Below, one piece after another: positions 25,401 to 28,400 of a stretch of 64,000 nt of DNA. Below the pieces are notes generated by a model. That model was given only the letters and a program-made list of their open reading frames with translations, had not been told where the DNA came from and ran no database searches. This DNA is from Atherinomorus stipes. Its lineage: Eukaryota > Chordata > Actinopteri > Atheriniformes > Atherinidae. The position numbers were made by a program, and so were the translations under genes. Location: positions 78,501-142,500 of the forward strand of contig JALJCO010001075.1 of NCBI GenBank assembly GCA_023101725.1. Reading direction: 5' to 3'. Numbering within the stretch: position 1 is the first letter of the stretch; each line of letters begins with the position of its first letter.

Positions 25401-28400
25401 TTGGCTGCAGAACACAAAGGAGCATGGGTAATTATTGACCTAAATATGACACTCATGGCAGAAGAGAAAAAGTCCACATCTGCAACATTTATTCTTAAAT
25501 TTGCTCAACATACAATTATTACTACAAAAATGAGTAAATAAAAAAAACACCCATCCCTAGTTAGAAATTCTTTCTATGGATGCTACTATACAAAGGATAG
25601 TTTTCAAATTGACCCCATTTTAACAATTTACTCTCTTAGGATTTACTGTTTACTCTGTGAGGCAGGATGGAGTGATGGTTTAAGAGGTGTCTAGACACAG
25701 ACAGACTGCGCTCAAGACAACATAGAGATCATAATGGAATCAAAACATACAGAGACAATGCCACAAACAAGACATATGACAGTGGGTGAGCCCCTCGCTA
25801 GACAATAAAGTCATATCGCATGCACCATCAGCAGAGGAGGGGAAAAAAAAAGAAGGAAGAAAGGAGAGTCAAGGAAGCTTGTGCAGTTGCCCGAGGCTCT
25901 GGCCGACTTTGTGCTCCAGCTAAGAAAATGTGGCTTTGGTAGCACGATGCTAAAGAGCAGCACCCGGGATCTGAGTCTAAATGTACATGTTCAGCACACT
26001 CAGCTCAATCAGCCAAAGATGGTTCAAGGAATCAACTTTGTAAATGCAGGGTGTGTAGTAGCAAGACAAGGCTCACCCCTTTTCCCATCCCCTCCTTTTT
26101 TTTAAAAATCTAAATTTCACTCTTTAATTTAGAAAAAAAAACCAACCAAAAACCCAAAACAAAACAAGAGAAATGCCTCCTGGACTAGCGAAAAGCATTG
26201 GCGAGCAGGCTTTCTGCAGTCATTGGTGTTTATGTCCTCAGAATGACTGTTAGATTCAAATTAGAATACGGGTTAGTTGTGAAATCAAACTTGGAAGTGG
26301 TTAGAACAGGAGAGGGAGAAGAGAGAGCAGAGATAAGGCCAGTGGGGGGGATGCAGTCATGATTACCTAACAACGGGTGGCCCTGGTCATCGGGGTGCTC
26401 GCTGAGTGCCTGCCTGTGTGGGTGCCCTTGCCCTTGTATGATGCAGGGAGGGGTGGGCTCTGCAATGCTAGTATCTGGGATGAATGGGCTTGATGGGCCC
26501 TGTGAGAGCACCGCTGCAGGGCTGCCCATGACACGGTCATCATCATCATCATCAACAACACCATCATCATCATGGTCAACATCCTCCCCATAGCCCCCGT
26601 GGTTTGGCCACTCTAGGTCAAGTCCAAAGCCCATGTCTAGCTCTGGTTCTAGCTGGCTGACCCAGCTCTCTAGGTCTAAGGTTAAAGGGGACAACAGGAG
26701 TCCTGAATCAGGCTCTTCAACCAGACTTCCTCCCTGATTTCTATGATCGGTGGTCCGTCTGACATCTTCTTCTTCCACCTTAGAAAAACATTGGGCTGGG
26801 CTCTCGGACCTCTTCTTACCTGCTGACCTGCTCTTAGTGCTATGTAAAGGGGGGATTGTGGGTGGGGGTAGGCTGGCCCGGAACTGAGAGGGCCTCTGTT
26901 TGGAGGTGAGCAGCTGGCTAAGTAAAGGGTGCCCCGGCTTCTCGTCTCTTTTCTTTATTGTCACTGTGATGTGCCTATGTGGAGTGCGGCTGGCACTGCT
27001 GCTGGAACTACGGCCTTGCCTGCCAAAGCCCTCACTAGCCTGAGTGGCGCCTGCAGCCTCTCGGCAATGCTCACAGCTGTGACTCACCTCTCGGGGAGGG
27101 AGGGAATAAGAATGCATATACCTAATGAACCTAGCGGCGGCCAGGCGGCCCACATCGCCTGGCGGCCTTCCTTCTTCACTGGGCGGCCCGTGCTCCAGTT
27201 TGGGGCGGGCATGGCCGCAGGTGTAGGTTCTGTGGCCAACAGGGATAGAGGCAACCTCCGACTCCTCAACCCCGTCATCGTGAGTGCAACGCTGCCACTT
27301 CCCAGCCCCAACACCAGCCATACTACACTCGCCTGCAGCCCGGCTCTCACCTCGCTGGTGATGCTGCTGCGGCGGCTGCTGCTGCTGCTGTTGAGATGGC
27401 ACAGCTGACTTCTTCTTGGAGGTGGTTGTGGAAGAGGAGGAAGAGGTGGAGGACAGGGAGGAGAACGAGGAGGTGGATGACGAGGATGGCGACGAGGAGG
27501 AGGATGAGGCACCGAGACCCAGGCCACTCTTGTCTCGGCTACTGGCACCTCCCCAGGCGCCCTTGGCTTCACTGGCTTTGGTGTGGAGCAGGATGTCATC
27601 GGTGGCCGTTAGGTATTTCAGCAGCTCAGTGCAAGGCCGCCTCACCGGGCGGTTCTGTTGGCTGGATCCCCCTCTTGCTTTACCGTTCCAGGGGCTCTCC
27701 ATCTGTGCAAAACGGAGAAAAAGACACATAATTGCTAAGTTTGCTTAAGATGAAAGTTTTGTCCGCTGCTGTTCATGCAGCAGCTGATCCAGTTGTGAGA
27801 AATGGTAAGTACTCCAAGGCAAAAACATAAAAGTACAAAGAGATGGAGCCACAGTGAGGCTGAAAGAGTGACTCAAGCAAGCCAAAGCACAGTAGTCGCC
27901 CGAGTGTCTGGGAGGCGATGGTGGGAGTGCCGTCCGCCCATCATCTTAATTGCGTGGCCCCCCGAGCACCACCGCGCCACTCTGTACGCGCACCGTGTCC
28001 TCCGGGAGTCCTCATTCGCTCTGCTCCAGAAATGGATGACTCAAAGGCACGGTATGAAAATAGACTCAGCGAGGAAGGTTGACGCACTGAATGTGCATCG
28101 TACGCAGAGCACACACAAATCTGTCTGTGCTGTGTTTAACACACAATATGAACAGATACAGATGCTTTTCACATTTAGCAGATTTTAGGCACTCAGTAAA
28201 GCATAACCAATGAAGATTTCAGACATTTTTGCCAAGCAAGAGCGAACAAGTGCTGCAGTATATTCTTTATATGGCAGTGTAAATAAATGTTGCGTTCTGA
28301 CATGAAAATGGAATCACAAAATCTATCAAGTCACATTTAAAAACGCCAACGGTTCTTACACGGACTAAAATCATATCTTAATCAAATCCATCCTTATAGA

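Follow-up and report, generated by a model that had tools for sequence, protein, structure and literature searches.

Two same-phase donors and an open 328-residue extension in exon 5 of fish ppargc1a, with a short block in common with PGC-1beta

The closest described relative of the protein discussed here is the short form of PGC-1alpha, a product of the same gene with the same flanking exons and acceptor, which corresponds to the long exon 5 minus its extension and so is without the 328 residues considered in this work. In mammalian PGC-1alpha the junction reads HLQ/AKPTT (the slash marks the join or cut here and below). The modular evolution of PGC-1alpha in vertebrates was reportedly the subject of a paper in 2010. 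A second relative is exon 5 of PGC-1beta (PPARGC1B), which resembles the fish extension by a homologous RYMH block, a predicted RYMH helix and apparently the same borders, with an LXXLL motif of uncertain homology after RYMH, but nothing beyond the RYMH block aligns with it. NT-PGC-1alpha and other mammalian forms are examples of a splice choice that changes the middle of the same coactivator; unlike NT-PGC-1alpha, the fish long form retains the C-terminal half. A long-read study of mouse heart described many PGC-1alpha forms, which involve exons 1, 3, 4, 6, 7, 13 and 14, and an exon 5 extension is unmentioned in the excerpts available from that article (PMC9338484).

In fish, Ser/Gln-rich insertions of 12–31 residues are found in the short form, in the same region as the extension, which is mapped as NRF-1 binding in mammals (residues 180–403, as quoted in PMC6354234); the extension, in contrast, adds a further 328 residues right after them. 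The control of fish mitochondria by PGC-1alpha is disputed. Articles on the subject found no such role in bream hepatocytes and ascribed the lost NRF-1 binding in fish to these insertions (PMC6354234, PMC7139572). In searches of an open-access library, including excerpts of PMC6354234, PMC7139572, PMC9338484, PMC10904817 and PMC13282225, a description of the extension was not found. NCBI and UniProt already list the long form among their predicted isoforms, and models in both contain the extension, which is therefore not hidden, contrary to a first-pass annotation of this DNA.

The window, that is, the whole stretch of 64,000 nucleotides of Atherinomorus stipes that was analysed, carries a fish ppargc1a gene on its minus strand, as established from matches to annotated fish proteins and by joining the exons. 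The full exon set of PGC-1alpha is present. By using tblastn with the annotated fish proteins P0041 and P0035, exons 1–8 and 10–13 were placed, and exon 9, outside the tblastn coverage, was found on joining the exons. Exons 10–13 match relatives carrying PF00076, so the C-terminal RNA-recognition domain is assigned by the annotation of those relatives. No Rfam match was obtained within the window. The exons are as follows:

45686-45639, minus strand: exon 1
43087-42908, minus strand: exon 2
30079-29885, minus strand: exon 3
28946-28821, minus strand: exon 4
27702-27351, minus strand: exon 5, short form, holding LLKYL and the Ser- and Gln-rich tract and ending at donor 1 (CGAG/GTGAGA)
27350-26367, minus strand: exon 5 extension, 984 nt or 328 codons, from donor 1 to donor 2
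25404-25359, minus strand: exon 6 (KPTTLPLPLTPESP), one acceptor for both donors
25156-25083, minus strand: exon 7
21598-20389, minus strand: exon 8
about 18515-18423, minus strand: exon 9
17584-17464, minus strand: exon 10
15642-15521, minus strand: exon 11
15166-15015, minus strand: exon 12
11267-11164, minus strand: exon 13

With exon 9 left out, the exons joined via donor 2 encode 1237 residues with the sole stop at the end, and those joined via donor 1 encode 909 residues. Donor 1 cuts after base 27351 and donor 2 after base 26367 (TTAG/GTAATC), both on the minus strand; each interrupts a codon between its first and second bases, and exon 6 completes it in both cases as G/CC, an alanine. 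The bases that follow donor 1 are coding in the long form:

27345-27350, minus strand: intronic hexamer of donor 1, GTGAGA, translated as Gly-Glu in the long form

Between the donors (27350-26367), stops are absent from the exon 5 frame, against 9, 10, 14, 17 and 33 in the remaining five. The extension is confirmed as a 328-residue, same-phase stretch that is open between two donors of ppargc1a exon 5; here the rebuilt exon agrees with the first-pass annotation, which had described a frame open for 984 nt to a second donor in the same phase. That such a frame would be open by chance, or would be a gene-model artefact inside an intron, has next to no probability. Doubtful junctions do occur in 13 of the proteins listed, but not one of 20,000 random first-order Markov sequences was open (an estimate from base composition gives 5e-6), and the protein is conserved in gar and in every teleost group listed, which together rule this explanation out.

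With an approximate weight matrix for donor sites, the scores were 5.6 for donor 1, 2.2 for donor 2 and -0.5 for the donor of exon 3. The low score of donor 2 is compatible with a real donor, since that of exon 3 is lower still. As donor 1 scores above donor 2, use of the long form probably requires assistance or takes place in certain tissues. An arrangement like an exitron, which had been proposed for this locus and in which both splice sites of an intron would lie within a single coding exon, is ruled out, because the short form joins donor 1 to the ordinary acceptor of exon 6 and the choice is one of 5' splice site. A third, strong in-phase donor lies inside the extension (26820, minus strand, CAG/GTAAGA, score 7.2) and would add 177 residues; a partial model from Liparis (P0021) joins SKSA to AKPTT at this place.

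The distribution of the extension was followed by two protein searches. In search 1, with the 446-residue exon as query, 45 proteins were obtained, 25 of which are ORFs running from the extension through donor 2. In search 2 the query was the 1237-residue long protein, with only residues 358–470 scored and E values accepted up to 10, and it returned 97 proteins, namely 96 long models of fish PGC-1alpha and the partial Liparis model. The long models come from gar, eels, a mormyrid, catfishes, characins, cyprinids, salmonids, pikes, pipefishes, gobies and many percomorphs, and the closest extension cores are those of rainbowfish (96% identity) and silversides (93%). All 96 long models pass from the extension into exon 6 at the position of donor 2 (92 recognised by pattern and four, with a variant exon 6, by eye).

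Identity of the extension to the window is 38% in gar, 41% in eels, 45% in the bonytongue group, 46% in otophysans, 53% in salmonids and pikes and 78% in percomorphs; the corresponding values for exon 8 are 54%, 50%, 49%, 53%, 58% and 79%. These figures rest on 80 grouped rows of 93, with 13 unplaced, after three of the 96 long proteins, shorter than 1050 residues, had been dropped. The RYMH core stays at 74–97% identity across the groups, and some middle stretches of the extension fall to 14–34% outside percomorphs. Judged by these comparisons, the extension changes nearly as slowly as exon 8, being slightly less conserved, and its RYMH core changes much more slowly. This slow evolution, together with the donor 2 join in every long protein from gar to percomorphs, shows that the extension is coding. 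The RGE pattern, which encodes donor 1, is found in 90 of the 96 long proteins and the residues after it are variable. Both donor sequences are conserved.

Among the 141 proteins of both fish searches, a clean donor 1 junction (QR/AKPT) is seen in four, from a goodeid, medaka, a croaker and carp. The donor 2 pattern accounts for 92, eight are joined upstream of the Ser-rich tract, five have other junctions and 32 gave no match to the exon 6 pattern, four of these being the variant donor 2 cases. Both forms exist as database models, which are mostly predictions, in medaka (P0028, P0069) and carp (P0043, P0126). These counts could be read as a long exon that is effectively constitutive in fish, with donor 1 giving a rare or artefactual short form, since donor 2 is used in all 96 long models and clean donor 1 junctions are so few. 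We regard this as unlikely, although it keeps some weight. The query of search 2 could return only extension-bearing proteins, so the ratio of donor 2 to donor 1 is uninformative on usage; donor 1 is the stronger of the two and is conserved; and a cloned liver cDNA from bream has 881 residues (PMC6354234) and by its length matches the short form, in which case the long form may be a lesser product in that fish. The first-pass annotation had left the choice between alternative and constitutive splicing open, and the conserved donors together with the paired models of medaka and carp fit alternative splicing. Both transcripts would then be made and regulated in Atherinomorus stipes.

Two peculiarities of the database models concern the same region. 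The eight models joined upstream of the Ser-rich tract (P0032–P0035, P0037–P0039 and P0041) reach exon 6 as ..KSGLGL/AKPTT, which would remove the Ser/Gln-rich tract; the counterpart of this join in the window is GGTCTCG/GTGCC at about 27513 on the minus strand, and joins of this type may reflect an error of gene building in low-complexity sequence. In the long model of spotted gar (P0142), HHQR runs directly into LRNGHG, a pattern that would result if donor 1 were spliced to an acceptor within the extension, with donor 2 used afterwards, and the extension of gar may be a separate exon.

The relation to PGC-1beta was studied with an approximate sequence of the human protein as query. It gave 242 matches, with identities of up to 98% (gibbons), and the 120 of them that were listed are all from amniotes where a species is named. 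A profile built from the window sequence and 84 of the 96 alpha rows was compared with one of 113 of the 120 listed beta rows. The sole significant match covers 17 columns, AAARFIRYMHSYSLPPR in the fish extension against AMVQLIRYMHTYCLPQR in PGC-1beta, with a score of 62.4 and an E value of 5.9e-8. When columns were shuffled after removal of gap-rich ones, none of 300 controls reached 62.4 and the highest was 23.6. With raw columns, one of 200 scored 132, above the real 62.3, and the next highest was 23.0; the score of 132 came from 13 columns that matched at the model's end, and it disappeared once the gap-rich columns were removed. The reversed alpha profile scored 14.2 against beta. The RYMH block is accordingly placed within the window as follows:

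27088-27132, minus strand: block RFIRYMHSYSLPPRE in common with PGC-1beta (profile comparison), with RFIRYMHSYSLPPR at 27132-27091

Within the fish proteins, RFIRYMHSYSLPPRE is exact in 79 of the 96 long proteins and RYMHSYS in 93. On the profile score, the block is judged to be homologous to PGC-1beta, and the PGC-1beta-like core that had been proposed from the window sequence stands in this respect, but it amounts to about 17 residues only. In the comparison with the listed amniote beta rows, the rest of the extension gave no further significant alignment to exon 5 of PGC-1beta, and neither SKPYRL nor VRRSKRLNPEL, two segments of PGC-1beta, was recovered from the fish extension. LxxELxxW-like segments were also tried as homologues and were not significant.

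Genomic ORFs compared by eye with spliced proteins suggest that exon 5 of PGC-1beta runs from immediately after the Lys preceding DSTQD to immediately before PRCLMLAL. Its ends correspond to the start of alpha exon 5 and to AKPTT, with the 5' border taken from one ORF (P0222), and the borders are thus apparently those of alpha exon 5. Given the matching location of the RYMH block in the two paralogues, it is simplest to assume that the common ancestor of PGC-1alpha and PGC-1beta had a long exon 5, that ray-finned alpha retained it next to an internal donor and that tetrapod alpha would have lost the extension. The alternative that the extension arose in ray-finned fish, with the RYMH block acquired by copying from PGC-1beta or by convergence, is quite improbable. 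Both extension searches returned only gar and teleost proteins, with no tetrapod, shark or coelacanth protein among the database proteins matched by queries worded for fish, and just 17 columns align to PGC-1beta. However, within the gene the block holds an equivalent position, downstream of the exon 5 start and upstream of the exon 6 join, and has the same order relative to the LXXLL box; a ray-finned origin requires copying or convergence, whereas retention requires one loss. The apparently equal borders also make the ancestral exon segment suggested by the first-pass annotation the better reading.

Beyond the block itself, the extension carries a small number of candidate motifs:

approx. 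27106-27156, minus strand: predicted RYMH helix, extension residues 67–82 (AlphaFold2)
26908-26922, minus strand: LSQLL, an LXXLL sequence resembling a nuclear-receptor box (motif match)
26536-26577, minus strand: acidic Asp-rich run (DHDDDGVVDDDDDD), overlapping a TCA/TGA-type trinucleotide repeat

In the AlphaFold2 model, which is of low confidence (mean pLDDT 52), the extension is largely disordered apart from a single helix at residues 67–82, where the pLDDT is about 84 over residues 71–80. In a PGC-1beta segment a helix is predicted at residues 77–94, with a pLDDT of about 90 across 81–90. Short helices of low confidence cover the LXXLL motifs of both. To our knowledge, no partner of the RYMH helix has been named. 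An LXXLL motif follows RYMH by 30–110 residues in 89 of 93 alpha rows (three have none and one has no RYMH match) and is found after RYMH in every one of the 111 beta rows in which RYMH was recognised, the other nine of the 120 listed beta rows having none recognised; the median spacing is 63 residues in alpha and 47 in beta. Homology of the box between alpha and beta is uncertain, since the profile comparison was not significant (E 0.5) and the box is lacking in gar, as it is in at least one further row. The trinucleotide repeat (26537-26573) encodes the Asp run, whose length differs among relatives. A search of the PDB gave no match for the RYMH core or the LXXLL segment, and in Pfam nothing was above the cut-off for three proteins.

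Taken as a whole, fish ppargc1a exon 5 very probably has two in-phase donors served by one exon 6 acceptor, with an extension that is the remainder of an ancestral exon and bears docking motifs. Use of donor 1 would give the familiar short PGC-1alpha, and use of donor 2 would place 328 further residues after the Ser/Gln-rich tract and before the AKPTT segment. This insert would be the rest of the ancestral long PGC-1 exon 5, still carried by PGC-1beta, and would be mostly disordered while presenting short docking motifs, namely the conserved amphipathic RYMH helix, an extra LXXLL box in most species, the acidic run and a conserved C-terminal stretch. The choice of donor would decide whether the segment with the putative RYMH docking helix and usually the further LXXLL box enters the coactivator, in the region mapped to NRF-1 binding in mammals, and its inclusion may add or change partners. 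It is tentatively conceivable, with some doubt, that one fish gene switches by donor between a short PGC-1alpha and a long one resembling PGC-1beta, and in this way covers partner preferences that mammals split between two genes.

Should fish also produce a form about 330 residues longer, tests of PGC-1alpha carried out with the short form only are incomplete, and if the donor switch operates as proposed, the reported NRF-1 non-binding and failure in mitochondrial biogenesis need tests with the long form too. The occurrence of the RYMH block in ray-finned PGC-1alpha and amniote PGC-1beta, with a predicted helix in both, points to a putative docking site. The compact tetrapod PGC-1alpha would, on the proposed ancestry, be a reduced form.

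The exon 5 frame remains open beyond donor 2, up to a stop near 26230, and two features lie directly downstream:

26361-26366, minus strand: intronic hexamer of donor 2, GTAATC, with Gly-Asn (GGTAA.) here in 25/25 read-through ORFs
26294-26353, minus strand: C/U-rich tract, 83% pyrimidine, directly downstream of donor 2

Read-through to this stop would produce a truncated coactivator like mammalian NT-PGC-1alpha. Besides the open frame, a database protein of Danionella (P0023) ends in this manner, and about seven codons after donor 2 (26366-26346, minus strand), reading GN..CI(P), are alike in all 25 read-through ORFs, from cyprinids to percomorphs. Nevertheless, this explanation is very improbable: the tails that follow are of percomorph type in 10 of the 25 and differ in length and frame in the other 15, and donor 2, where coding is judged to end, is the splice site of all 96 full-length models. 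The conserved stretch after donor 2 exceeds what a donor consensus needs. Pro, Leu, Ser and Phe make up 54–90% of the first residues of the 25 tails, against 30% in the extension. The pyrimidine content of the C/U-rich tract is matched by 0.4% of the 60-mers of the window on the minus strand, and the tract is a possible splice-regulatory (repressor) element, to which little weight is given because the donors of exon 1 and exon 4 are equally pyrimidine-rich.
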